Positions 1,693 to 15,122 of a DNA stretch of 41,971 bases are shown here, piece by piece. The translations under genes and the position numbers were made by a program. This DNA comes from Reyranella massiliensis 521 (GTDB lineage Bacteria; Pseudomonadota; Alphaproteobacteria; Reyranellales; Reyranellaceae): positions 1 to 41,971 of the forward strand of contig CAMAYC010000036.1 of NCBI GenBank assembly GCA_945862125.1. The letters are read 5' to 3'. Positions within the stretch are counted from its first letter, which is position 1; every line of letters begins with the position of its first letter. Below the pieces are notes generated by a model, which was not told where the DNA came from, did no database searches, and saw nothing but the letters and a program-made list of their open reading frames with translations.

Positions 1693-2685
1693 CTAGGTGA
1701 TGTAAACCGCTTTGCGATGGTAGGAGAGATAGCCTCGCTGCCCGTCCGAAAAGCCCTGCGCCAGCCACGGCATTGGCGCTTCGGAGAATCCAAGCTGCTT
1801 CCAGGCATGCTCGCCAAGCCCCAGGCGGCGAAGATCGTCCGGGGCAAAGCGAGGCGAGCCACGAACGTCGCCGCTGTCCTCAAACGAAATGAAACCTCGA
1901 TCGAAGAGCAGATCGGCGTCGGGCGTCAACAGGAGCCCATTGGCCCCATCGAGTCTCTGGGCTGCTGTCTCGCACGACCGCCACGGCATGATGTGGCTGG
2001 CAATCAGAAGGGCGGAATTGGTGATGCCGGTGAGGCGGCACGATTTCTCGATCTTCTCGACATTGGACCGGAATGTCCCCTGTCCCCGGCGCGCCTGGAT
2101 GGTGGCGGTGCGGGTGGTGTCGTCCAAGGTCAGGTCGGCTCGAAGGGTGGCTTCGACCCGGTCGTCGAGCTCGTCCTTGACGGTACCGAAGCTTAGCCGG
2201 TTGGCGCCGCCGGTCTCGAGCCGGACGTCGTCGACGTGCGTGTGTGCCCTGACGACGTCGTAGATCTCTCTTGGAATGGCGGCGAGGTAGACGCCCTGGT
2301 TGCCGTTACCGGTCTCAGGCTGCAGCGGCGAATATTTCTCGGGCAGCAGAGGCCCGATCAGCGGCAGCAGATCTCTGGGACGGATCGGCGGATCGAGCCG
2401 GGTCCAGAAGACCGGCAGCAGCCAGCCCTCATTGTTCCAGTACGAGCCCGTCGACCCGAACTCGGAGGGCTTGGGTGCCGTAAAGGCAAAATCCGCGACG
2501 CGCCCGAGATAGCGGATGAGCTGGTGCGCATAGGAGAGGACCAGATCTCCGGGATTGGCCGCGCGCATGTTGTCGTAGAAGCGGTTACGCGCGCCATTCG
2601 CCGAGGTCTTGGGCGACCACAGGTACTGATGCTCAATCTCCTGATTGAACGTCTGCTTGTGATTGACCCACCAGAACTGGCGCAT
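1693..2685 (-). CDS. EVE-HNH modification-dependent restriction endonuclease
   Basis: The product is 330 residues from ATG 2685. The N-terminal half opens with FWWVNHKQTF...YLWSPK and contains NPGDLVLSYA, the pattern of an EVE (PUA-like) domain, which flips and reads modified bases. The C-terminal part (about 205-275) is an HNH_2-type nuclease: C216 in SCRLTG, H231 in ASHIMPW, N249 in NGLLLTPDADLLFDRGFISF. EVE-HNH proteins such as VcaM4I are type IV-like enzymes that cut DNA carrying modified cytosines, a defence against phages with modified genomes. No methyltransferase is nearby, as expected for a modification-dependent enzyme. The gene stands alone, divergent from an MFS gene across 229 bases in which I see no clear regulatory site. 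Confidence 0.85.
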   Translation of the reverse strand: MRQFWWVNHKQTFNQEIEHQYLWSPKTSANGARNRFYDNMRAANPGDLVLSYAHQLIRYLGRVADFAFTAPKPSEFGSTGSYWNNEGWLLPVFWTRLDPPIRPRDLLPLIGPLLPEKYSPLQPETGNGNQGVYLAAIPREIYDVVRAHTHVDDVRLETGGANRLSFGTVKDELDDRVEATLRADLTLDDTTRTATIQARRGQGTFRSNVEKIEKSCRLTGITNSALLIASHIMPWRSCETAAQRLDGANGLLLTPDADLLFDRGFISFEDSGDVRGSPRFAPDDLRRLGLGEHAWKQLGFSEAPMPWLAQGFSDGQRGYLSYHRKAVYIT

Positions 2686-4144: not shown

Positions 4145-4244
4145 GGGCGGGGTGTGCCGGCGCCGTGGCGCCGAACACCAGAGCGCCCAGCAGCAGCGAG
4201 GGGAGGGAAGCAAGCGCCAGCGTTCGCACGATCGTCTTGGTCAT
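4145..4244 (-). pseudogene. Signal-peptide stub of a fourth paralog of the exported family
   Basis: From ATG 4244 on the minus strand the frame reads MTKTIVRTLALASLPSLLLG and continues GALVFGATAPA. The intact paralog starting at 7883 begins MTKTIVRTLARGSLPGLLLG and continues GALVLGPTARA. The 40-base spacer in front of the stub (4245-4284) is base-for-base the spacer at 7884-7923 between two intact paralogs. The similarity ends near the MFS stop codon (4142-4144), where the frame runs on into antisense MFS sequence. This is the 5' end of a deleted or truncated family member, not a gene in its own right. Confidence 0.75.
4152..4178 (+). terminator. Strong inverted repeat just after the MFS gene
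   Basis: CGGCGCC - GT - GGCGCCG (4158-4173) is a perfect stem, extended by GTGT (4152-4155) pairing with ACAC (4175-4178). It begins 7 bases after the MFS stop. There is no T-run, so it could be a factor-dependent end or a processing or stability hairpin rather than an intrinsic terminator. It also falls inside the paralog stub. Confidence 0.4.
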
Positions 4245-4284
4245 TTCGGACTGGCCTCCTGCACGCACGTCGCCGCCATGCCTC

Positions 4285-5080
4285 TTACCGATCGAAATTG
4301 AGCGACATCCCGCCGGGCTCAGGGGAGGGGCCGGGGAGCGTGAGCAGGCTGGAGGCGTACGACGGCGCCTTCATCACGAGGGCCGCGGTCTTCTCCGAGA
4401 CCTGGAGCTTCTCCGTCGCCTTGTCGGTGGCGATGCCGACCGCCACCGAGCCAGCCGTGACAGCCGCCTTGGCAATGATCTGCTCCGCCACCTTCTCGAA
4501 CCCCGCGCCGATCAGGCTGCCGGGCACCGTCGCCACGGCATCGCCGGCGCCCTTGGCCGCCGCCTCCTTGAACCGCTGGGTGGCGGTCTGGTCGGTAAAG
4601 ACGTTGCTCATGAGTTTCTGGACGAAGCCCGAGGTCCCGGCGACCATCGCCGTGCCCACCACGCCGCGCAGGACCGCGGCGCCGCCGGTCGCCACCGCGG
4701 GATTGGCGAACGCCGACAGCGGAAACGCCAGGCTGACCGCCGTCGACAGGACCATCAGGCTGGCATCGGCCGGATTGTCCTTGACCCAGTTCGCCGCACT
4801 CTCGCCGGCATCGAGGACCGCCTGGGCCGCCTCGCCCGCCACGTCGCTCGGCATCGGCATGCCGCTCACGAAGGTCGACCGCAGCTCCGGCGGCAGATGC
4901 CCGTAGCTCGCTTCGAACATGTGCGTCATCACGTACTTCTCGAAGGCCTTGGCTTCTCCGCCCACGGTCGGCGGATTGAACGTCGGCGGCGCCCCCTTCG
5001 TCGGCGGCACCAGCGTCACCGCGCGCTCGATGCCAGACCCGTCGGTCACGAAGATCGTGTTGCCGTCGACCCGGACCGAT
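4285..5080 (-). repeat. 796-bp conserved paralog block, copy A
   Basis: This is the 3' portion of the exported-protein gene. It is alignable without net length change to 6465-7260 and 7924-8719, and all three blocks are exactly 796 bases from stop codon to the GNTI(F/Y)VTD region. Confidence 0.85.
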
Positions 5081-5574
5081 GCTGTCGGCTGTTCGCCGCC
5101 AAGCCTCTGAAAGATGGTCTTGAGCATGGCGACTTCGTCGACCTTGGTCTTGTCATCCTGCTTGGCGATCGAAACGTCGTAGTCGCCATACAGACACTGC
5201 CAGAGGGCGTAAGTGGGATTGTTCCTGTAGCCAAACCGCCAGCACGATGCGCCATCGATCGTTCGCTCAGACTTGGTTTCGAACTGCTGCGAGCGAATGG
5301 CCACGGCCTGCTCGTGCATCTCGCGTGGGTTGGCCGGCTTGCCGTAGATCACGACCTGCGCACCCGCAGCTTCACCTCTTACGGCAGTGTAGTAGTTGAC
5401 GACCAGGCCCGGCGGCCACGTGCCTTCTTTTGCGTGATTTACAAACTTTCCGCCGAGATGGATCTCCAGATCGGATCTGTATTCAGCGAGAACTGCGCGG
5501 GGCCCGGCTCCGACAAGCAACGCCGCCGTAACGAACGCAGCCGGAAGCCTTGCGAGACGAGCGAGCCGCATCAT
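4285..5574 (-). CDS. Exported protein A of a variable-N / constant-C paralog family, function unknown
   Basis: The product is 429 residues with a signal peptide (about 1-30, ending near VLAEY). The N-terminal domain (about 31-165) is unlike those of the two paralogs and has two cysteines (SCWRFGY and WQCLYGD), compatible with one periplasmic disulfide. From about residue 166 (VRVDGNTIFVTDGSG) to the end (SLNFDR) it is nearly identical to the paralogs ending at 6465 and 7924. That part has a predicted beta-hairpin, a helical segment (KAFEKYVMTHMFEASY), and an Ala/Gly-rich hydrophobic stretch (about 255-300, LSAFANPAVATGG) that could insert in a membrane. Its start overlaps the stop of the upstream gene in ATGA (5571-5574), which implies translational coupling. 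I know no named family for it. Confidence 0.75.
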   Translation of the reverse strand: MMRLARLARLPAAFVTAALLVGAGPRAVLAEYRSDLEIHLGGKFVNHAKEGTWPPGLVVNYYTAVRGEAAGAQVVIYGKPANPREMHEQAVAIRSQQFETKSERTIDGASCWRFGYRNNPTYALWQCLYGDYDVSIAKQDDKTKVDEVAMLKTIFQRLGGEQPTASVRVDGNTIFVTDGSGIERAVTLVPPTKGAPPTFNPPTVGGEAKAFEKYVMTHMFEASYGHLPPELRSTFVSGMPMPSDVAGEAAQAVLDAGESAANWVKDNPADASLMVLSTAVSLAFPLSAFANPAVATGGAAVLRGVVGTAMVAGTSGFVQKLMSNVFTDQTATQRFKEAAAKGAGDAVATVPGSLIGAGFEKVAEQIIAKAAVTAGSVAVGIATDKATEKLQVSEKTAALVMKAPSYASSLLTLPGPSPEPGGMSLNFDR

Positions 5575-6455
5575 TGCTTCTTGCCGCCACTCAGCGGCAT
5601 GGTGCCCAGCAACCGTCTCCCGTCGCTCTTCTTCGGATGCAGGTCGGTGTGCAGGTACACGCTGGCGATGGCCGGTTTGCCGCTGGCCTTCCAGGGCACC
5701 GCCGCAACCGCGAAGCCCGCGTCGTCGAAGCTCGTGGCGGCCGGCGCCTTCGGATCGGTCTTGCCGGCCTCCGCGCCCACATGGATTTCCAGCCGGTCGC
5801 CGGGCAGCACGCGGTCCGGCGAGATCGCGATCAGCATCCAGTCGCCGGCGGGCAGGGGCATCGCCTGCGCGAGGCTCGCCGTGCGTTCGAGCCAGACGTC
5901 GACCGCCTTGGGACGCTGCTCGAGCAGGGCCTGGCCGGCCTTGAGCGGCAGCGCGCGCAGCACCACGCGCGCGTCGACGGGCGTCATGGGCATCGCCTGG
6001 AGATCGTGGACCGCGATGCCCTTGGCCGAAGAGCCGTAGTCGATCATGAATACCGTCTGCGCCCGCAGGCCGTCGATGTTCACGAACTGCAGGAAGCCCG
6101 TCAGGCGGCGGCCGGGTTCGCCGTGGCGAGACGGCTCGACGACGTTCAGGGTCACGCCGCCCAGCCGGTAACCCTCGTAGCGGAACCCGCCGCCCCTGGG
6201 GCTGGCGTCGTAGGAGACCACCTTGGCATCCGGCGCCAGCACTGCCTTGCCCAGCCCCCTGGACAGGTCGGCGTCGCCGCGCAGCATCTGGCTGACGGCC
6301 AGGACGGCCAGCATGATGTCGGGCGCAACGTCCTGGGCCGCGACATCGGTCTTGCCCGGAAGCGCGATGATCTCGAGCTTGTCGGCGGCGCCCGCGGATC
6401 CCGAGGCCAGCAGGCCGAACACCAGCGCGCAGAGCGCCACCTTGAGCGTTTTCAT
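5571..6455 (-). CDS. Exported protein of unknown function inside the paralog array
   Basis: The product is 294 residues with a clear signal peptide (MKTLKVALCALVFGLLASGS, cleavage near GAAD, about residue 24). The mature part is mixed alpha/beta by pattern and has no cysteine or obvious catalytic motif. Recognisable stretches are YDASPRGGGFRYEGYRLGG and a late segment with VAAVPWKASGKPAIASVYLH. It does not share the constant C-terminal block of its neighbours, so it is not a fourth family member. It starts 9 bases after the stop of paralog B (6465) in transcription order and overlaps the start of paralog A by four bases, so B, this gene and A are very likely one operon. A role in the same periplasmic process is inferred from position only. 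Confidence 0.75.
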   Translation of the reverse strand: MKTLKVALCALVFGLLASGSAGAADKLEIIALPGKTDVAAQDVAPDIMLAVLAVSQMLRGDADLSRGLGKAVLAPDAKVVSYDASPRGGGFRYEGYRLGGVTLNVVEPSRHGEPGRRLTGFLQFVNIDGLRAQTVFMIDYGSSAKGIAVHDLQAMPMTPVDARVVLRALPLKAGQALLEQRPKAVDVWLERTASLAQAMPLPAGDWMLIAISPDRVLPGDRLEIHVGAEAGKTDPKAPAATSFDDAGFAVAAVPWKASGKPAIASVYLHTDLHPKKSDGRRLLGTMPLSGGKKQ

Positions 6456-6464
6456 CTGTGCCTC

Positions 6465-7260
6465 TTATCGATCGAAGTTGAGCGACATGCCGCCGGGCTC
6501 AGGGGACGGGCCGGGGAGCGTGAGCAGGCTGGACGCATAAGACGGCGCCTTCATCACGAGGGCCGCGGTCTTCTCCGAGACCTGGAGCTTCTCCGTCACC
6601 TTGTCGGTGCCGATGCCGACCATCACGGAGCCCGCCGTGACCGCGGCCTTCCCAATGATCTGCTCCGCCGCCTTCTCGACCCCCGCGCCGGTCAGGCTGC
6701 TGGGCACCGTCGCCACGGCATCGCCCGCGCCTTTGGCCGCCGCCTCCTTGAACCGCTGGAGGGCGGTCTGGTCGGTAAAGACGTTGCTCATGAGTTTCTG
6801 GACGAAGCCGGTGGTGCCGGCGACCATGGCGGTCCCCACCACGCCCCGCAGGACCGCGGCACCGCCGGTCGCCACCGCGGGGTTGGCGAAGGCCGACAGC
6901 GGAAACGCCAGGCTGACCGCCGTCGACAGGACCAGCAGGCTGGCATCGGCCGGGTTGTCCCGGACCCAGTTCGCCGCGCTCTCGCCGGCATCGAGGACCG
7001 CCTGGGCCGCCTCGCCCGCCACGTCGCTCGGCATCGGCATGCCGCTTATGAAATTCAGACGCTGGTCCGGCGGCAGATGCGCGTAGCTCGCCTCGAACAT
7101 GTGCGTCACCACGTACTTTTCGAAGGCCTTCGCCTCTCCGCTCACGGTCGGCGGGCTGAAGACCGGCGGCGAACCCTTCGTCGGGGACACCAGCGTCACC
7201 ACGCGCTCGGTTCCGGATCCGTCGGTCACGTAGATCGTGTTGCCCTCGATCCGCACCGAT
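6465..7260 (-). repeat. 796-bp conserved paralog block, copy B
   Basis: Same block as 4285-5080 and 7924-8719. It is very close to copy A across the region encoding GFVQKLMSNVFTDQT, where copy C differs, and closer to copy C in the segment encoding SSLTGAGVEKAAEQIIGKAA, where copy A differs. Confidence 0.85.
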
Positions 7261-7883
7261 GACTTGCTGCCGGCATCGGGTGCCGCACCGGACGCTACCT
7301 CGGCAGGTGTCGAAGAGGCCTCGCCCCTCAGCGCAGCAACAAGGCCCGGCGCGATGGATGACGTTACAGCAGCGCCGTTGAAATAGTCCTCCATTAGAAA
7401 GACCTTCCATTTTCCGATCCGGAAAACAGTCTCCCGCTGGAACGTGCCGCACTTTTCCTTGCTGAGGTAGTTGCCCTCAAAGACCGCGGTCTCGTCGGTG
7501 CCAGCCAGCGAACTCGCGACCTTTGTAACCTGAGCGATGTTTTCCCGCTGCAGGCGAGTGACTTCAAACTGATGATGTGCAATTGCCGGCGAATCGTGGT
7601 CCTCGATCGATACTATCACCCGGTTGCCATACCAGTGGTTGCAGAATTTCTTGTCTTCGTGCTGCTCCTCACGCTGGAACTGCAACTGACGGATCCCCGG
7701 TCCTTCCAGGTATGACAACTTCTTGGGGTCCGGCGCGAAGATCATCAGCCGGCGCAGGTCGGCCGGAACCTGGTCGAGGGAGGTCTGCGCGTTTGCCCTC
7801 GCCGTGGGGCCGAGCACCAGCGCGCCCAGCAGCAACCCGGGGAGGGACCCACGCGCCAACGTTCGCACGATCGTCTTGGTCAT
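6465..7883 (-). CDS. Exported protein B of the variable-N / constant-C paralog family
   Basis: The product is 472 residues from ATG 7883 (MTKTIVRTLARGSLPG). I chose this start because it opens a good signal peptide ending near ANAQ (about 33). Upstream in-frame codons encode the antisense of the spacer. The N-terminal domain (about 34-190) is specific to this copy: LRRLMIFAPDPKKLSYLEG, then CNHWYGNRVIVSIEDHD, then EKCGTFQRETVFRIGKWKVF, with two cysteines. A short Ala/Ser-rich linker (about 195-215) leads into the constant part starting SVRIEGNTIYVTDGSG. The constant part differs from A mainly in scattered substitutions. It is 40 bases downstream of paralog C on the same strand. Confidence 0.75.
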   Translation of the reverse strand: MTKTIVRTLARGSLPGLLLGALVLGPTARANAQTSLDQVPADLRRLMIFAPDPKKLSYLEGPGIRQLQFQREEQHEDKKFCNHWYGNRVIVSIEDHDSPAIAHHQFEVTRLQRENIAQVTKVASSLAGTDETAVFEGNYLSKEKCGTFQRETVFRIGKWKVFLMEDYFNGAAVTSSIAPGLVAALRGEASSTPAEVASGAAPDAGSKSSVRIEGNTIYVTDGSGTERVVTLVSPTKGSPPVFSPPTVSGEAKAFEKYVVTHMFEASYAHLPPDQRLNFISGMPMPSDVAGEAAQAVLDAGESAANWVRDNPADASLLVLSTAVSLAFPLSAFANPAVATGGAAVLRGVVGTAMVAGTTGFVQKLMSNVFTDQTALQRFKEAAAKGAGDAVATVPSSLTGAGVEKAAEQIIGKAAVTAGSVMVGIGTDKVTEKLQVSEKTAALVMKAPSYASSLLTLPGPSPEPGGMSLNFDR

Positions 7884-7923
7884 TTCGGACTGGCCTCCTG
7901 CACGCACGTCGCCGCCATGCCTC

Positions 7924-8719
7924 TTACCGGTCGAAGTTGAGCGACATGCCGCCGGGCTCAGGGGACGGGCCGGGGAGCGTGAGCAGGCTGGACGCATACG
8001 ACGGCGCCTTCATCACGAGGGCCGCGGTCTTCTCCGAGACCTGGAGCTTCTCCATCGCCTTGTCGGTGGTGATGCCGACCATCAAGGAGCCCGCCGTGAC
8101 CGCGGCCTTCCCAATGATCTGCTCCGCCGCCTTCTCGACCCCCGCGCCGGTCAGGCTGCTGGGCACCGTCGCCACGGCATCGCCGGCGCCTTTGGCGATC
8201 GCCCCCACGACCCTCTCCCCCGTGCTCTGGGTGGTGAGGAATGTCTTGGACAGGCTTTGGACGAAGCCGGCGGTGCCGGCGACCATGGCCGTGCCCACCA
8301 CGCTGCGCAGGACCGCGGCGCCGCCGGTCGCCACCGCGGGATTGGCGAAGGCCGACAGCGGAAACGCCACGCTGACCGCCGTCGACAGGACGACCAGGGC
8401 CACTTCGGCCCGGTTCTCCCGGACCCAGTTCGCCGCGCTCTCGCCGGCATCGAGGACCGCTTGGGCCGCCTCGCCCGCCACGTCGCTCGGCATCGGCATG
8501 CCGCTCACGAAGCTCGACCGCAGCTCCGGCGGCAGGTGTCCGTAACTGGCCTCGAATGCGTGCGTCATCACGTACTTTTCGAAGGCCTTCGCCTCTCCGC
8601 TCACGGTCGGTGGGCTGAAGGCCGGCGGCGACCCTTTCGTCGGCGTCACCAGCGTCACCACGCGCACGGTTCCAGACGCGTCGGTCACGTAGATCGTGTT
8701 GCCCTCGATCCGCACCGAT
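7924..8719 (-). repeat. 796-bp conserved paralog block, copy C (mosaic)
   Basis: This copy keeps the length and both ends of the block but has a divergent patch at about 8197-8258 and a second at about 8386-8424. Sequence on either side matches copies A and B closely. Confidence 0.8.
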
Positions 8720-9327
8720 GACTTGCCGCCGGCATCGGGTGCTGCACCGGGCGCAACGGTGACCGCCGGATCAGCGCCGACCGTCAGCTGCCGCCAGGTG
8801 CCGATCCAGTCGGAAGGCGGACCGGGCGGCGTCGTTCGCGGCAGGGTGGCGGCACAGGGCCCTGTGACCGATGTGTACGATGTCGGTCCATTGGTCCATC
8901 GGTTGGTGAATGTTCCGTCCGGAGACAGGTTGATCGTTCCCGTCAGCACGGTCTCGCTGGTGTAAGTACATTCAGGAACGGATTGGCTGACCTGGAGGAG
9001 CGCCTGACTGACGATCTGGTTGCCGTGCAGCTTTCCCCTGATCGACGCCTTCAACACCCCGTACGGTATCTGCGTCTGCATGTGACACGCGACGACACCC
9101 GCCGTCGCACTGCAAAGATCCCGGAATTTCTCGTCCGGCTTGTCTGCCGTCCACCCGATCATCTCGAACGAGCCGTCGACGATGAGCGGCGCGGCGGCGC
9201 CGACAGCCTGTGCCTGGGCCACGACCGGCGCGCCGCCGAGAAGCATTGCCGCCAGGCACACCGAGGCCAACTCGACCGCGACCTCGCGCGCACCGTTCTT
9301 CGAAACTGGGCAAGCCACGTCATTCAC
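7924..9327 (-). CDS. Exported protein C of the variable-N / constant-C paralog family
   Basis: The product is 467 residues from GTG 9327. A signal peptide ends near AQAQA (about 41). The N-terminal domain (about 42-190) is unrelated to those of A and B and has four cysteines (DLCSA, VACHM, PECTY, GPCAA), which suggests two disulfides. The pattern VLTGTINLSPDGTFTNRWTN followed by DWIGTWRQL resembles a small beta-rich lipocalin-like or META-like fold, though I cannot assign it. The constant part starts SVRIEGNTIYVTDASG. Within it, about residues 290-305 and 350-376 differ strongly from A and B while the flanks are nearly identical, a mosaic pattern. It is the first gene of the probable operon C - B - 5571..6455 - A. 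The start codon is weakly supported, with no good ribosome site. Confidence 0.7.
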   Translation of the reverse strand: MNDVACPVSKNGAREVAVELASVCLAAMLLGGAPVVAQAQAVGAAAPLIVDGSFEMIGWTADKPDEKFRDLCSATAGVVACHMQTQIPYGVLKASIRGKLHGNQIVSQALLQVSQSVPECTYTSETVLTGTINLSPDGTFTNRWTNGPTSYTSVTGPCAATLPRTTPPGPPSDWIGTWRQLTVGADPAVTVAPGAAPDAGGKSSVRIEGNTIYVTDASGTVRVVTLVTPTKGSPPAFSPPTVSGEAKAFEKYVMTHAFEASYGHLPPELRSSFVSGMPMPSDVAGEAAQAVLDAGESAANWVRENRAEVALVVLSTAVSVAFPLSAFANPAVATGGAAVLRSVVGTAMVAGTAGFVQSLSKTFLTTQSTGERVVGAIAKGAGDAVATVPSSLTGAGVEKAAEQIIGKAAVTAGSLMVGITTDKAMEKLQVSEKTAALVMKAPSYASSLLTLPGPSPEPGGMSLNFDR

Positions 9328-9442: not shown

Positions 9443-11227
9443 TCAGCCGACAGTGCTGCCCGCCAGGCGTTCAAGCGCCGCGATGCCGACCGGGGGTTCC
9501 GCCAGCCGCGGCAACAGGTACGTCGCTTTCGCCAGCCCGTCGTGCACGCGGGCGATCTGGGCCCGCTCACCGGACAGGCGACGCAGCAACAGCGGGTCGC
9601 GCGTGCCGCTGGCAACGAGGCACTTGTTGATCACCCAGGCGTAGGGCTCGATGCCGGCGCGCCTCAGATCCTCCTGCAATGCCGCCGCCTGGGACACGGG
9701 CGTGGTCTCGGCCAGGGTCACCAGGATGACATGCGTATAGGCGGAATCCTGCAGCCGCATCAGGGGCGTGATCAATCGACCGCTGCCGGGCTGGGCGGGC
9801 AGGTTCTGAACCATCTGGCGGTGATAGGCGCCGGTCGCATCCATCAGCAGCAACGAATGGCCGGTCGGCGCCGTATCGAGGACCACGAAGGCACTGCGCG
9901 CTTCGCCGACGATTCGCGAGAAGGCATGAAAGACCGCCACTTCCTCGGTGCAGGGTGACTCCAGATCCTCGCGCAGCAGGGCGCGGCCGGCCTCGTCCAG
10001 GTCGCGGCCCCGCGTCTCCATCGCCTTGGCGACATAGCGGGCCGTCTCGGCCTTGGGGTCGATGCGATCGACCAGCAGGCCCGGCAATTCGCCGTCGAGC
10101 GTCATGGCGAGATGCGCCGCGGGATCGGTCGTGCTGAGGTGCACCGAGTGGCCGCGCCCGACCAGGCCGATGGCGATGGCGGAGGCGATGGTGGTTTTTC
10201 CGACCCCGCCCTTGCCCATCACCATGATCAGGCCGCGTCCATCGCCGGCGAGACGATCGATCAGCGCGCGAAGGTCCGGATAACGCCCGGCGGCCATCGC
10301 CGCGGGATCGGGCTCGCGCTCCGCCATTGGCTTCGGCGACCCGGCGGGCGCGAGCAGCGACCGCAACGCGTCGAGACCCACCATGTCGTAGGCCCGCAAC
10401 GCAATCTCCTCGCGCGGCAGGCGGCGCAATCCCTCGGGCATGTCGGCGAGCGCCGACCGGCCCTCCTTTTCCAGCGAAGCCGCCACCGCATCCCTTGCGC
10501 CCGACGCCCTGAACACCCCGTTCACCACGAGGTGCTGGTTCGACAGGCCCATGGCCTTCAGCTCGACCGACGTACGATCGGCTTCCCGGATCGCGCCCCG
10601 CTCGGGCCGCGTCACCAGCACGATCGTGGTCAGCCTCTCATTCGCCAGCGCCTCCATGGCATGGCGAAAGCGCTCTTCCTGCATCTTCAGCCCGGAATGC
10701 GGGCCCAGGCAGGAGGCGCCGCGATCGTTGCCGGCGAGAAACCCGGTCCAGGCCTTCGGCAGGCTGAGCAGACGCAGCGTGTGGCCTGTCGGCGCCGTGT
10801 CGAAAACGACATGGTCGAAGCCGCTCGCCTCGTCGGCCAGCAGGCCCGTGAACTCGTCGAACGCGGCAATCTCCGTGGTACAGGCGCCGGAAAGTTCCTC
10901 GCGCACCGTCTGCCGGGTCTTCTCGTCGGTCCCTGTTTCGAGCTGCGCCAGGACGCGGACGCGATAGGCCTCGGCCGCCGCCGTCGGATCGATGTTGAGC
11001 ACGGACAGTCGCGGCGCACCGGGCACGGCAGCCGGCCGGTTGCTGAGCGTCACGCCCAGCATCTCGTCGAGGTTCGAGGCGGGATCGGTGCTGACCAGCA
11101 GAACGGTCTTGCCGGCATCCGCCAGATGCAACGACGCGGCAGAGGCGATCGAGGTTTTACCGACGCCGCCCTTTCCGGTGAAAAACAGGAAGCGGGTCGG
11201 TGAGCTGCCGAGGAAGTTCAGCGTCAT
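9443..11227 (-). CDS. arsA: ArsA-type arsenite/anion-transporting ATPase (tandem two-domain)
   Basis: The product is 594 residues, close to the 583 of plasmid R773 ArsA. Two homologous halves each carry a deviant Walker A (FFTGKGGVGKTS, about 15-26; VMGKGGVGKTT, about 336-346) and the signature DTAPTGH (about 143-149 and again in the second half). The metalloid-binding cysteines have equivalents: C116 in GACTTEIAAF, C173 in ASCLGPHSGL and C426 in SPCTEEVAVF. In the classic system ArsA energises the ArsB antiporter and receives arsenite from ArsD. No arsB, arsD, arsR or acr3 gene is visible here, so the partner is unlinked or the protein has another role, for example in tail-anchored protein handling as in Get3 relatives. 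The retained cysteines favour metalloid work. Confidence 0.88.
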   Translation of the reverse strand: MTLNFLGSSPTRFLFFTGKGGVGKTSIASAASLHLADAGKTVLLVSTDPASNLDEMLGVTLSNRPAAVPGAPRLSVLNIDPTAAAEAYRVRVLAQLETGTDEKTRQTVREELSGACTTEIAAFDEFTGLLADEASGFDHVVFDTAPTGHTLRLLSLPKAWTGFLAGNDRGASCLGPHSGLKMQEERFRHAMEALANERLTTIVLVTRPERGAIREADRTSVELKAMGLSNQHLVVNGVFRASGARDAVAASLEKEGRSALADMPEGLRRLPREEIALRAYDMVGLDALRSLLAPAGSPKPMAEREPDPAAMAAGRYPDLRALIDRLAGDGRGLIMVMGKGGVGKTTIASAIAIGLVGRGHSVHLSTTDPAAHLAMTLDGELPGLLVDRIDPKAETARYVAKAMETRGRDLDEAGRALLREDLESPCTEEVAVFHAFSRIVGEARSAFVVLDTAPTGHSLLLMDATGAYHRQMVQNLPAQPGSGRLITPLMRLQDSAYTHVILVTLAETTPVSQAAALQEDLRRAGIEPYAWVINKCLVASGTRDPLLLRRLSGERAQIARVHDGLAKATYLLPRLAEPPVGIAALERLAGSTVG

Positions 11228-11624: not shown

Positions 11625-11777
11625 TTTGAGCATCATGACATTGCGAGGCAAGGCCTGACGAACGTTTGTCTCTAGCACTCCCGTGCAGTCGAGCGGCGGC
11701 TGCGAGACGCTGCGACGGAGCTAAGTGGCGAATCACAAAAATGCGACTTTTGGTTGATACTCTTGTTAGTATGCCCC

Positions 11778-13037
11778 ATGGCACGTGAGAATTTGAGCTT
11801 CTTCGATGCTCCTGCTACTCAAGCATGGCTTGCACAATTTGATCCTCGTGATCAGCCGACTGCAGCCGAAATGCTCAAAGCGATGGCGTTAGTCTCGCAT
11901 GAAGCGTTTGCTAACGGATTGAGCGCCCTGCTGCTTCGTCGGCTCGCGAAAGGTCGCCAGCCCATGGGGTTGTATGTGGAGCGAGAACTACCCCGCTACA
12001 AAGGGCGGCCAAACAGACTGTTTAAGGAAACAAAAACGAAAGTCCGTAAGGCGTATGGGATTGGGCCGCAGCCCGTCAAACCGACTAGAGCCTATGATCC
12101 GGACGTAGGTAGCGAGGGTCTGGTTGCTCAACTAGTAAGCGAGTTGTGCCGCCAGAATAAGGGAATTCTCTTCAATCATCCTGGTCCGGATTCCATTCGG
12201 AAGTACAAGATACGACGATTTGTAGTCGTTACAGACTTTGTCGGGAGTGGAAAGCGTGCGCGCGATTATCTTGAAGCGGCGTGGAGAGTAGCGTCTGTCA
12301 AGAGCTGGCGTTCTGCAGGTGCTGACAAAGGGTTACGCTTCGAAGTAATCGCTTACGCTGGAACCCCGGAAGGTCAGCGAAATGTTGAAGAACACCCCTG
12401 TAAACCCAAGGTTCGCTTTGTCGCTGGGTGTCCGACAGTTGGGCAATTGTCATCTGAGGATGCACGCTATCGAATACGAGGAATCTGCGTCAGGTACGAT
12501 CCGGTCGACCATGATCCGACGGACTCGCTTGGATTTCGCAGTGGTGGGGCCCTAATCGCGTTCGCGCACGGTGTCCCAAATAACGCACCGAGGATACTTC
12601 ATAAGCGCGCGGCAAAATGGGCGCCGCTGTTTCCTGCTCGCGTTACGGCAAATTCGCGAACGCATTTCACGCAACGAGATGACGCTCAAAGCATCGCCGA
12701 CCGGCTAGTACAAATGCGTCAGCGTGGGCTGGCGACAGCGGCATGGTTGAAGACCGCTAGCCCCAAACTGCAGGCTCTAGTGCTGGTTCTGGCGGCACTT
12801 GGTCGAGGTCCGCGCAATGTCGAAGCAGTCTCTCGTCAGACAGGATTGACGCAGTTTGAAGTTGAACGATGGCTAGAACACGCAATCGGGCAGGGCTGGG
12901 TGAATGATAAGCGGCGCCTAACGGATCTTGGTCAATCTGAACTTCACATGCTTCGCAAGACAGTTGTGAGGCAAAAACCACTTCAACCGCCGCGAAAAAA
13001 GATGTACTTTCCAACCATGTTGAGGGCGCCGAGTTAG
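11778..13037 (+). CDS. Phosphoribosyltransferase-like (PRTase-CE-like) protein with C-terminal winged helix; probable conflict/defence gene
   Basis: The product is 419 residues from ATG 11778; a TTG at 11754 is in frame but less likely. The central stretch 148-160 (FVVVTDFVGSGKR) matches the PRPP-loop pattern of phosphoribosyltransferases: four hydrophobics, an acidic residue, then a G-S/T-G turn. It also has IAYAGTPEG and, near 265-275, FAHGVPNNAPRILH, which resembles the H-x-x-PNN-x-x-P motif of PRTase-CE-type proteins predicted in prokaryotic conflict systems. Residues about 330-395 (NVEAVSRQTGLTQFEVERWL...LTDLGQSEL) look like a winged helix. Base composition is clearly lower in G+C than the neighbours (28 of 60 bases at 12001-12060, against 38 of 60 at 14041-14100), a sign of transfer. 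The gene is alone and ends in a good terminator. Enzymatic activity is not shown by sequence. Confidence 0.65.
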   Translation: MARENLSFFDAPATQAWLAQFDPRDQPTAAEMLKAMALVSHEAFANGLSALLLRRLAKGRQPMGLYVERELPRYKGRPNRLFKETKTKVRKAYGIGPQPVKPTRAYDPDVGSEGLVAQLVSELCRQNKGILFNHPGPDSIRKYKIRRFVVVTDFVGSGKRARDYLEAAWRVASVKSWRSAGADKGLRFEVIAYAGTPEGQRNVEEHPCKPKVRFVAGCPTVGQLSSEDARYRIRGICVRYDPVDHDPTDSLGFRSGGALIAFAHGVPNNAPRILHKRAAKWAPLFPARVTANSRTHFTQRDDAQSIADRLVQMRQRGLATAAWLKTASPKLQALVLVLAALGRGPRNVEAVSRQTGLTQFEVERWLEHAIGQGWVNDKRRLTDLGQSELHMLRKTVVRQKPLQPPRKKMYFPTMLRAPS

Positions 13038-13352
13038 TCGTCTAGTTGCGCTGGCTTCGGCTGGCGTCAGGCAAGTGACCTCGGTCGCTTGTTTTCGGGG
13101 CACAGAATCTGTTGCTCTTTGGTCTAGCGGCCGCTTGATGCTAAGGCTTATCGCACCGTGAGCCCGGAGGGCCGCTGCGAGGTCTTGCTTCTCTGCTTAG
13201 GCGTGTTGCGCCAGCCTTCGACGCTCTCGGACATTGCTTTGCAAACGCGGCTTGTAACCAAGCCGCAGCCTGTCGCTCCCAGGGCCGCGCGCGCACGACC
13301 TCGTGATGCATCGACGCTAATCCGCGCGGCCCTCTGCTACAGTAAGACCGTC
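13038..13352. other. 315-bp gap between the PRTase-like gene and the cyclase gene
   Basis: Apart from the terminator at 13071-13096 I see no gene, tRNA or clear promoter. A frame open from 13158 leads into the cyclase but encodes an unconvincing, basic leader. The mixed composition suggests this is the right-hand edge of the inserted low-G+C segment. Confidence 0.5.
13071..13096 (+). terminator. Intrinsic terminator of the PRTase-like gene
   Basis: CAAGTGAC (13072-13079), loop CTCG, GTCGCTTG (13084-13091) forms an 8-bp stem with one T-G wobble, followed by TTTTC. It lies 34 bases after the stop codon. This is the best intrinsic terminator in the left half of the window and supports the gene being an independent unit. 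Confidence 0.7.
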
Positions 13353-15122
13353 ATGCGCCGCACCTGGTCCTGGACCTTCGACCTGCCGCCGGAAGAGCTC
13401 TGGCCGGTGCTGGCCGACACCAACCGCTTCAACGAGGCGATGGGCCTGCCGCCCTATGCGCTGGAGGAGACGCCGCAGCCCAACGGCACGGTGCTGCGCC
13501 GCGGCAAGGGCAAGGCCGCGGGCTTCACCCTCGAATGGGAGGAGAAGCCCTACGAGTGGATCCACGGCCGCCATTTCCGCCAGGCCCGCCAGTTCACCAA
13601 GGGCCCGTTCCGCCGCTTCGGGCCGGTGTTCGATCTCGAGCCTGATGGCGCGGGCGGGAGTCGCGTCAGCTACGCGCTCGAATGGGAGCCGCTCACCCTG
13701 ATGGGCCGGCTGTTCGGCAAGCGTTTGGCCGAGCAGGCGGGCGCCGTCGTCGGCAAGCGCATCCTGGAGGCGGTGGCCTTTGCCAAGGGCGAGCGGCCGA
13801 CGTTCTTCGAGCTGCCGGCGCCCGAGCTTCCCGAAGGCGCGCGCGAGCGGGCAGCGGCGATGGCGGCGGAGGTCGATCGCAGCCCCTATGGCAATGGCCT
13901 CGGCGCGCGCCTGGCCGAGCGCGTGCTGACGGGTATGGCGACGGATCTGGCGCCGCTCAAGCCCAAGAAGCTGGCGCGCGCGCTGGGCGTCCCGCCGCGC
14001 ACCGCCATCGAAGCCTGCCTCGCCGCGGTCCGGGCCGGGCTGCTGACCATGAAATGGGACCTGCTCTGCACCAACTGCCGCGGCGCCAAGCTCAGTGCCG
14101 CGTCGCTGGGCGAGCTGCCGCGCGGCGCGCATTGTCCCTCGTGCAACATCGACTACGACCGCGATTTCGAGAAGAACGTCGAACTGTCGTTTGCGCCGGC
14201 GCCGCAGGTGCGGCCGATCGGGACCGGCGGGTTTTGTCTGTCGGGCCCGATGGCGACGCCGCATGTGGCGGTGCAGCTCCTGCTGGCGCCGGGGGAGCGG
14301 CGGAGCTTGGCAGGTCAGGGGGCGGTCGATCTGCCGGCCGGCAGCTATCGCGTCCGCACGCTCCATCCCGGTGCGTTCGTCGACGTGGAGCATAAAGGCG
14401 GCGCCTTTCCGGGCGCGCGCATCGGCGCTTCGGGAGTCGAGGCCGTTGAGGGGCCAATGGAGGGCGGCGCGTTCGTGAACGACGCGGGCTTCGAGTTGGC
14501 GGTTCTCGTGGAAGACCGCACCTGGACGCGCGAGGCGCTGACCGCGCCCGAGGTGATCTCGCTGCAAGCCTTCCGCGATCTCTTTGCCGCCGCGACCTTG
14601 CGGCCGGGCGACGAGGCGGGGGTGAGCCAGGTGGCGCTGCTCTTCTCCGACCTGCAGGGCTCGACCGCGCTCTACGAGCGGGTGGGCGATGCCCAGGCCT
14701 ACAACATGGTGCGCGACCACTTCGCCCTGCTGGCCGGCATCGTGCGCGACCACGACGGCGCGGTGGTGAAGACCATCGGCGACGCCGTCATGGCCTCGTT
14801 CGGCGATCCCGCCAACGCGGTGAAGGCGGCGCTCGCCATGCAGGCCGCCATCGCCGACCACGATCTCGTGCTGAAGCTCGGCGTCCACATGGGCCCCAGC
14901 GTCGTGGTGACCTTGAACGACCGCCTCGACTATTTCGGCTCCACCGTGAACATGGCCGCCCGCCTGCAGGGCCAGAGCGCCGGCGGCGACATCGTGCTCT
15001 CCCGCGCCGTCGCCGACGATCCGGCGGTTCAGCCCGTGCTGGCCGACCTGCCCCGGCACGAGGAAAGCGTGGCCCTCAAGGGCTTTTCAGAGCCCGTGGG
15101 CTTCGTCCGCCTGATTTTATAG
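13353..15122 (+). CDS. Class III adenylate/guanylate cyclase with SRPBCC-like and DUF5939/zinc-ribbon domains
   Basis: The product is 589 residues from ATG 13353 (MRRTWSWTFDLPPEELW). Residues about 1-150 resemble an SRPBCC (START-like) ligand-binding fold. The middle part has a four-cysteine zinc-ribbon pattern, C239-x-x-C242 and C261-x-x-C264, and matches the DUF5939 region seen in bacterial cyclases. The C-terminal catalytic domain (about 425-589) has metal-binding D433 (LLFSDLQGST) and D477 (KTIGDAVMASF) and the transition-state Asn/Arg in STVNMAARL. It should make cyclic AMP or GMP in response to something bound by the N-terminal domains. No transmembrane segment is seen, so it is cytoplasmic. 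The nucleotide specificity is not certain; the class is usually adenylate cyclase. Confidence 0.85.
   Translation: MRRTWSWTFDLPPEELWPVLADTNRFNEAMGLPPYALEETPQPNGTVLRRGKGKAAGFTLEWEEKPYEWIHGRHFRQARQFTKGPFRRFGPVFDLEPDGAGGSRVSYALEWEPLTLMGRLFGKRLAEQAGAVVGKRILEAVAFAKGERPTFFELPAPELPEGARERAAAMAAEVDRSPYGNGLGARLAERVLTGMATDLAPLKPKKLARALGVPPRTAIEACLAAVRAGLLTMKWDLLCTNCRGAKLSAASLGELPRGAHCPSCNIDYDRDFEKNVELSFAPAPQVRPIGTGGFCLSGPMATPHVAVQLLLAPGERRSLAGQGAVDLPAGSYRVRTLHPGAFVDVEHKGGAFPGARIGASGVEAVEGPMEGGAFVNDAGFELAVLVEDRTWTREALTAPEVISLQAFRDLFAAATLRPGDEAGVSQVALLFSDLQGSTALYERVGDAQAYNMVRDHFALLAGIVRDHDGAVVKTIGDAVMASFGDPANAVKAALAMQAAIADHDLVLKLGVHMGPSVVVTLNDRLDYFGSTVNMAARLQGQSAGGDIVLSRAVADDPAVQPVLADLPRHEESVALKGFSEPVGFVRLIL

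Follow-up and report, generated by a model that had tools for sequence, protein, structure and literature searches.

A shared C-terminal block on different exported N-terminal domains, and an overlapping partner gene, in Reyranella massiliensis

A 41,971-nucleotide stretch of the Reyranella massiliensis 521 draft genome (contig CAMAYC010000036.1, here called the window) carries, on its minus strand between 9327 and 4285, four genes in the order C-B-P-A. C (467 aa), B (472 aa) and A (429 aa) each encode a signal peptide, an N-terminal domain of their own (N-C, N-B and N-A) and a shared C-terminal block (the C-block), and P (294 aa) encodes an exported protein. We read the array as a set of swappable exported N-domains on a C-block chassis that docks to P and/or the membrane, the block having been grafted onto A and B, and we give this reading a probability of about 0.5. 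It is built on the anatomy of the locus, two predicted N-domain folds, the parallel divergence of P and the C-block, the mosaic make-up of the C-blocks, and the different C-termini carried by the relatives of N-A and N-B. Layouts of this general kind are known, but the family itself and its grafting appear to be new.

Architecture of the array

The unit is compact: the only gaps between its genes are of 40 nt and 9 nt, and one pair overlaps by 4 nt (Table 1). Signal peptides of A, B and C were judged by eye, and the start of B was taken as the ATG at 7883, the open reading frame (ORF) list having a longer form. A preliminary description of this DNA had reported three adjacent genes with a signal peptide, an N-domain unique to each and the same 3' block of identical length. 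The ORFs and alignments bear out this architecture. C and B are indeed adjacent, but P lies between B and A; the block is of equal length (265 residues, ungapped, in C, B and A), but its sequence is not identical. DNA identity over 797 bp is 91% for A-B and 87% for A-C, that of B-C is 90.8%, and the other two copies are 89 and 82% identical to copy A in protein. The mature N-domains contain even numbers of cysteines, as described, but the counts for the genes starting at 9327, 7883 and 5574 are 4, 2 and 2 rather than 2, 2 and 4; two further cysteines lie in the signal region of C. The same description missed P, gene conversion and a fourth remnant.

Table 1. Features of the array
Feature	Coordinates	Strand	Basis
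Gene C: signal peptide, N-domain C (predicted beta-barrel, 4 Cys), C-block	7924..9327	-	ORF; N-domain model
N-domain cassette C, including signal peptide	8722..9327	-	GC3 0.77 vs 0.92 in its own C-block
C-block copy C	7924..8721	-	DNA alignment of copies
Gene B: signal peptide, N-domain B (predicted PsbP/Mog1/DcrB/Eag-like alpha/beta, 2 Cys), C-block	6465..7883	-	ORF; model; fold matches
N-domain cassette B	7263..7883	-	GC3 0.75
C-block copy B	6465..7262	-	DNA alignment of copies
Gene P: conserved exported partner, 294 aa	5571..6455	-	ORF; homologues; 4-nt overlap of its stop with the start of A
Gene A: signal peptide, N-domain A (2 Cys), C-block	4285..5574	-	ORF; N-domain relative in G013
N-domain cassette A	5083..5574	-	GC3 0.71; no alignment to the G032 domain at the equivalent place after P
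C-block copy A	4285..5082	-	DNA alignment of copies
Remnant: C/B junction (40-bp spacer and first ~32 codons of B) repeated in the 3' flank of A, breaking off beside MFS gene	4149..4284	-	DNA/protein comparison

Upstream of the C-block, A, B and C do not align, and sliding DNA identity at the edge drops from about 0.85 to 0.2-0.3 when A is compared with B or C. Between B and C, similarity runs on for about 40 bp past the edge; C and A share the 3' flank past the stop codon. When 145 bp 3' of the A stop were compared with the C/B junction, 123 of 145 positions were equal and the encoded peptide was 75% like the first 32 residues of B: a truncated fourth copy follows gene A (about 4244-4149). 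The rest of the draft genome (5.2 Mb in 271 contigs) yielded no further copy; a 40-bp match to the C-block on contig C22 lies within an RND-pump-like gene (named from reading) and was rejected as chance.

The G+C content of third codon positions (GC3) is 0.71-0.77 in the N-domains of the window and 0.91-0.92 in the C-blocks and P. The three C-blocks themselves are best described as mosaics mixed by gene conversion: their 124 informative sites show 43 pattern switches, whereas 10,000 shuffles averaged 78.9 and never fell below 59; with sites of one codon counted once, the comparison is 43 with 66.8.

N-terminal domains

Profile comparison shows no relation among N-A, N-B and N-C; the sole signal, between N-C and N-A (E 0.007, probability 5), covers the signal peptides. 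In the N-C model, residues of about 52-183 form an eight-strand meander with a predicted local distance difference test score (pLDDT) of about 80. Foldseek gave no match for N-C at E 1e-3 (best 0.029), and VIA-align returned many eight-strand barrels (NspA with Z 11.0 and a root-mean-square deviation of 3.0 over 117 residues; also OmpA, avidins and HphA), a list that would make N-C a barrel and nothing further. The N-B model (three rows) is alpha/beta with pLDDT 63. Its fold list consists mostly of PsbP, Mog1, LpqN, DcrB, EagT6/SciW and Tsi3, the best being EagT6 (Z 9.0, root-mean-square deviation 5.0, 130 residues); Foldseek gave nothing at or below E 1e-3 (best 3e-3). N-B and N-C thus have different predicted folds, and for these two the models support the view that the N-domains are unrelated. 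The strand-helix order of N-A resembles that of N-B by eye, which is a guess, and profile comparison of the two found nothing.

Relatives of these domains occur in other contexts. In what follows, compared genomes carry G-numbers, of which G142, G185, G207 and G427 belong to other families of Alphaproteobacteria. N-B has relatives in G061 (41% identity) and in a stand-alone 200-aa protein of G019, N-A has one in G013 (30%, E 5e-7), and N-C has relatives in G032, G072 and G079, which with the window make 4 of the 76 genomes of the order. Weak matches to N-A in G065, G088 and G079 (E 0.02-0.05) and five weak matches to N-C were dropped. With unrelated profiles, differing predicted folds for N-B and N-C, and relatives of N-A and N-B that have another C-terminus or stand alone, the earlier claim of swapped N-domains on a shared C-block is supported.

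These observations bear on whether the array could have arisen by ordinary tandem duplication of one gene whose N-domains then diverged fast in place. The tandem arrangement, the fourth remnant and the shared 3' flanks would all follow from such a history, but the sharp boundary, the GC3 step in the window, the different predicted folds of N-B and N-C and the N-domain relatives with other C-termini would not, and we regard it as very unlikely.

Divergence of P, the C-block and the N-domains

Among 65 genomes of the genus, the C-block profile matched 6 at E up to 0.1: the window, G032, G061 (broken), G018 (a fragment), G072 (weak) and G066. The G072 match was confirmed by gene order, and that of G066 was rejected after inspection; weak matches in G066, on contig C159 of G032 and on contig C594 of G061 (E about 0.03) were dropped, G066 alone having been inspected. 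A profile search of genome contigs returned one locus, in a Reyranella metagenome-assembled genome (NZ_SCVH01000037.1), as the closest record; the closest relative in the genome search was contig C73 of G032. With the whole of gene B as query, only the window itself matched among 385 genomes of the class, a set with few Reyranella genomes; up to four candidates per genome were scored. Gene C had no match in plasmids or phages, and peptide patterns of copy A did not find the C-block in viral contigs.

P is strong in 4 of the 65 genomes (the window, G032, G072 and G079), which are also the 4 of 76 found in the order. Weak P matches in seven other Reyranella genomes (E 1e-4 to 0.01) were treated as noise, two of the seven having been inspected; the matches in G016 and G024 run antisense to an Hsp20-like ORF (named from reading), and G016, seen again at E 3e-4, was left out of the count. 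Window P is 85% identical to that of G032, 49% to that of G072 and 51% to that of G079.

Immediately after P comes a single gene of the N-C type in G032, G072 and G079, and gene A in the window. Three of these four genes have a C-block; in the fourth, that of G079, the contig ends before most of the block. The P stop and the next start overlap by 1 nt in G032, by 4 nt in G079 and by 4 nt in the window (P-A), and are separated by an 11-nt gap in G072 with the chosen start. The domains that follow P in the window (N-A) and in G032 (N-C-like) are unrelated despite the shared P and C-block. Measured per 30 columns, identity between the two loci is 0.73-0.90 as P ends, does not exceed 0.60 from the start of A to about 5074, and is 0.60-0.93 in the C-block. 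The preliminary description had proposed listing genomes with the block to see whether the N-domains keep changing. The N-domain after P does differ between the window and G032, but the block is near-constant only in the window and this one relative.

P and the C-block diverge in step, and the N-domain does not. Between the window and G032, synonymous divergence (dS) is 0.48 for P and 0.49-0.58 for the C-blocks, while N-C has 34% identity and a dS of 1.5, near saturation. The history of the N-domain therefore differs from that of its flanks, and since a threefold rise in dS is not expected from protein-level selection alone, exchange of the N-domain is the simpler reading. Between the window and G072, identity is 50% for P, 30% for the C-block and 51% for N-C.

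Evidence bearing on a probable grafting of the C-block

The B-type protein of G061 and the A-type protein of G013 lack the C-block of the window (C-block 1) and have another C-terminal region instead. The two regions, of 262-269 residues, are 25% identical in alignment (BLASTP of one sequence against the other, E 3e-4 over 43 residues) and may be one shared second region, a weak relation. This candidate region of about 265 residues, containing cysteines and not hydrophobic, is found on A-type and B-type N-domains at loci L084 (3973-5289, minus strand) and L060 (3310-4683, minus strand). Profile comparison of it with C-block 1 shows no relation. In G061 a broken C-block 1 (truncated, with the frame lost and regained by our reading) lies immediately upstream of the B-type gene, paralleling the window, where the intact gene C lies upstream of B.

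Outside this genome, the relatives of N-A and N-B are joined to a different C-terminus or stand alone, which makes it probable that A and B acquired C-block 1 here by grafting. In the simplest history they would first have had a different C-terminus, and the P-linked gene would have supplied C-block 1.

In G018 the C-block fragment (locus L011, 4613-5439) lies beside an IS21 istB-like ORF, identified by reading. Its place apparently equals the chromosomal site of the G032 array, on the side of MarR, GST and HlyIII.

P-like genes in other families

The P profile reaches G142, G185, G207 (twice) and G427 at E 1e-12 to 7e-8, with up to six candidates per genome scored. Homology to window P places the genes of G032, G072 and G079 in the P family, and hhalign adds that of G185 (probability 96.7, E 3e-10 against the Reyranella profile). 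In G185 and at one G207 locus, P overlaps by 4 nt the following exported gene (here Q; 564 and 541 aa, with a proline-rich front); at the second G207 locus the gene order is reversed and the 4-nt overlap kept. In G185 and G207 all three loci thus couple P by a 4-nt overlap to an exported gene with a moderately hydrophobic tail. Over their last 200 residues, the three distant partners have 27-29% Ala+Gly, a best 19-mer hydropathy of 1.64-1.81 and at least 4-5 charges per 50 residues. G142 has two overlapping P-like genes (the larger matching G185 P at E 2e-9) beside a secA-like gene, by reading, and no tailed partner was noted there. The P and partner proteins that were scanned matched no Pfam or NCBIfam family, and P and Q of G185 had no match in plasmids.

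In G185 and at the second G207 locus, the P-Q pair adjoins an autotransporter beta-domain protein (PF03797), and a hybrid histidine kinase and a LuxR-type regulator stand beside it by reading of the sequence. The two loci (L104, 8012-11930, and L103, 1582-8375) come from two families and have these like neighbours around P-Q in different gene orders.

The coupling of P to exported partners also bears on whether the array is in decay. Its patchy presence at different genomic places, the broken copy in G061 and the G018 fragment beside an IS21-type ORF could mark a decaying or near-neutral array with no current function, whose chimaeras are by-products of recombination. Yet all four genes of the window are open, P is coupled to an exported partner in other families, and the ratio of nonsynonymous to synonymous divergence in the C-block is 0.23-0.55, so the block is kept. 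We consider decay quite unlikely.

Character of the C-block and comparison with known systems

The C-blocks of the window have 25-27% Ala+Gly, a 50-residue stretch with 1-2 charges and a best 19-mer hydropathy of 1.73-2.13 (1.74 in G032, 1.58 in G072). For comparison, Ala+Gly is 16-24% in ten control proteins, seven from the window and three from the G185 locus. Their best 19-mers score 0.92-1.30 in the seven presumed soluble and 2.36-2.62 in the three that have a membrane helix (MFS, FecR, histidine kinase). An Ala/Gly-rich hydrophobic stretch able to enter a membrane had been proposed earlier. A charge-poor hydrophobic stretch is present, but its hydropathy is intermediate and its enrichment in Ala and Gly modest. 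The values would fit a membrane-associated or partner-shielded helical hairpin and are no proof of one.

No Pfam, NCBIfam, PADLOC or PHROG family fits the array proteins; library matches at E 0.006-0.46 were rejected, either because they fell below the cut-off or, for PHROGs, because they were marginal and had no function attached. Among the literature matches listed, no title or abstract deals with these proteins.

Autotransporters, type IX secretion system (T9SS) cargo and PEP-CTERM proteins have a signal peptide, a variable N-terminal part and a constant C-terminal module. The array proteins follow the same plan, so the preliminary statement that no described family has this layout does not hold. 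They differ in that the C-block matches no scanned model, is predicted at low confidence to be helical, and comes with a translationally coupled exported partner. PF03797, present in the library, does not match A, B or C at E up to 10, and T9SS and PEP-CTERM sorting domains gave no match at E up to 1 in NCBIfam, which includes these models, some of them very short.

The C-block might accordingly be a secretion or sorting signal, read by an unknown route for export or outer-membrane delivery with P as escort. The shared plan would suit such a role, as would the autotransporter beta-domain protein beside P-Q in G185 and at one G207 locus. The neighbours of the array, an MFS permease and an ArsA-type ATPase, are however not a known secretion machine, library scans matched no sorting module, and C-block relatives diverge to 30%. 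On balance a sorting signal seems unlikely.

XVIPCD effectors of the Xanthomonadales type IV secretion system are described (PMC11253643, PMC6759196) as combining a variable N-terminal domain with a constant C-terminal recognition domain. The array proteins resemble them in this respect but have Sec-type signal peptides, and XVIPCD (a Pfam model) had no match in them at E up to 10. Eag chaperones, of DcrB/DUF1795 fold, are described in PMC7773334 as binding transmembrane helices of type VI secretion system effectors. N-B has such a predicted fold and sits on a block with a hydrophobic stretch, but it is exported and fused, has no PAAR or DUF1795 match (in Pfam, which includes a DUF1795 model, neither window B nor the G061 B-type protein matched), and also occurs alone and with a non-hydrophobic C-terminus. 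We did not retain the idea of N-B as a built-in Eag-like chaperone of the C-block, given that it is found without the hydrophobic tail too.

Polymorphic toxins have a constant N-terminus and a variable C-terminal toxin, with domain exchange by recombination. The array shares the domain exchange, and its exchanged part is lower in GC3 in the window; the exchanged part is N-terminal, as the preliminary description recognised in calling the layout the reverse of theirs, and no toxin domain or family was matched. A pore-forming toxin or bacteriocin, in which the N-domain binds a receptor, the helical C-block inserts in a membrane and P is the immunity protein, would make use of the charge-poor hydrophobic stretch, and the predicted N-B fold is also that of Eag chaperones and of the immunity protein Tsi3. 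All the proteins nevertheless have Sec-type signal peptides (by eye), and PADLOC, Pfam and NCBIfam gave no toxin match. Moreover, P is conserved, exported and single whereas the C-block genes multiply, which makes a toxin-immunity pair less likely; we hold this explanation to be highly improbable.

Other genes in the window

Directly upstream of the array lies the double ArsA-type ATPase (9443-11227, minus strand; PF02374 in two stretches). With a threshold of E 1e-60, 15 of the 65 Reyranella genomes have such an ATPase, and in G061 the array is not beside it. Further along, a PRTase-CE protein with an associated winged helix-turn-helix (11754-13037, plus strand; PF24390, PF24409) matches the PADLOC model PRTase_III-A, presumably linked to retrons, at E 7e-123 and occupies the lowest-GC stretch of the window. 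An adenylate/guanylate cyclase domain with DUF5939 follows at 13158-15122 (plus strand), with a weak, below cut-off polyketide-cyclase-like front, and an HNH_2 endonuclease (PF13391) like the restriction enzymes in PADLOC models lies at 1693-2685 (minus strand).

Discussion

We propose that the ancestral unit was a translationally coupled pair of P and one C-block protein. The C-block with its 3' flank would have been copied by recombination onto neighbouring genes, and gene conversion would then have mixed the three copies. Sec would export both P and the C-block proteins. The N-domain would fold in the periplasm or at the surface as the part that contacts a ligand or partner, and the C-block, probably helical with a charge-poor, moderately hydrophobic stretch, would dock the protein to P and/or the membrane. 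The window has a single P for its three C-block genes, an indication that the part contacted by P is the constant one. A single P would thus be the shared, co-translated partner of several C-block proteins, so that new N-domains could be tried with the docking machinery unchanged.

Several points weigh against this proposal. The location of the C-block proteins, their membrane insertion and their binding to P are inferred, as are ligand binding and the polarity of the graft. Hydropathy of the C-block is intermediate and its Ala/Gly enrichment modest, its model (gene C, six rows) is poor, mostly helix, with pLDDT of about 22-42, and uninterpretable, and the other C-terminal region of G061 and G013 is not hydrophobic. 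The tails of the distant partners (the G185/G207-C2 pair) have no detectable homology to the C-block (hhalign probability 0.4). The structural case for differing N-domains comes from the models of N-B and N-C. A topology test gives no support to N-domain swapping: the four-sequence N-C tree is poorly resolved, the P topology is its best tree (approximately unbiased test, AU 0.68), and only distances disagree. The GC3 step recurs in G032 (0.66 versus 0.80-0.85) and G061, and weakly in G079, but is absent in G072 (0.84 in both N-C and C-block), and the N-A relative of G013 has 0.89. Finally, few genomes are involved, with P strong in 4 of 65, and most of them are in many contigs.

A broader possibility, which we put forward tentatively and consider doubtful, is that P and its partner form an Alphaproteobacterial two-gene envelope module in which exported P is the escort or dock of a hydrophobic-tailed exported protein. 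The Reyranella chassis would take interchangeable N-domains by cassette swap and grafting. Elsewhere P is coupled to long exported proteins; at two of these loci the neighbours are an autotransporter barrel and a two-component system, which would point to an apparatus for surface sensing or display.

That the C-block is so constant in this genome appears to be a local effect of grafting and conversion, tied to a more widely distributed partner gene. The array offers a bacterial case in which the exchangeable part of an exported protein is its N-terminus and a constant C-terminal block can be traced onto unrelated neighbours. P, an exported family with no Pfam or NCBIfam match that is translationally coupled to hydrophobic-tailed exported proteins in distant Alphaproteobacteria, may explain why the C-block spreads.

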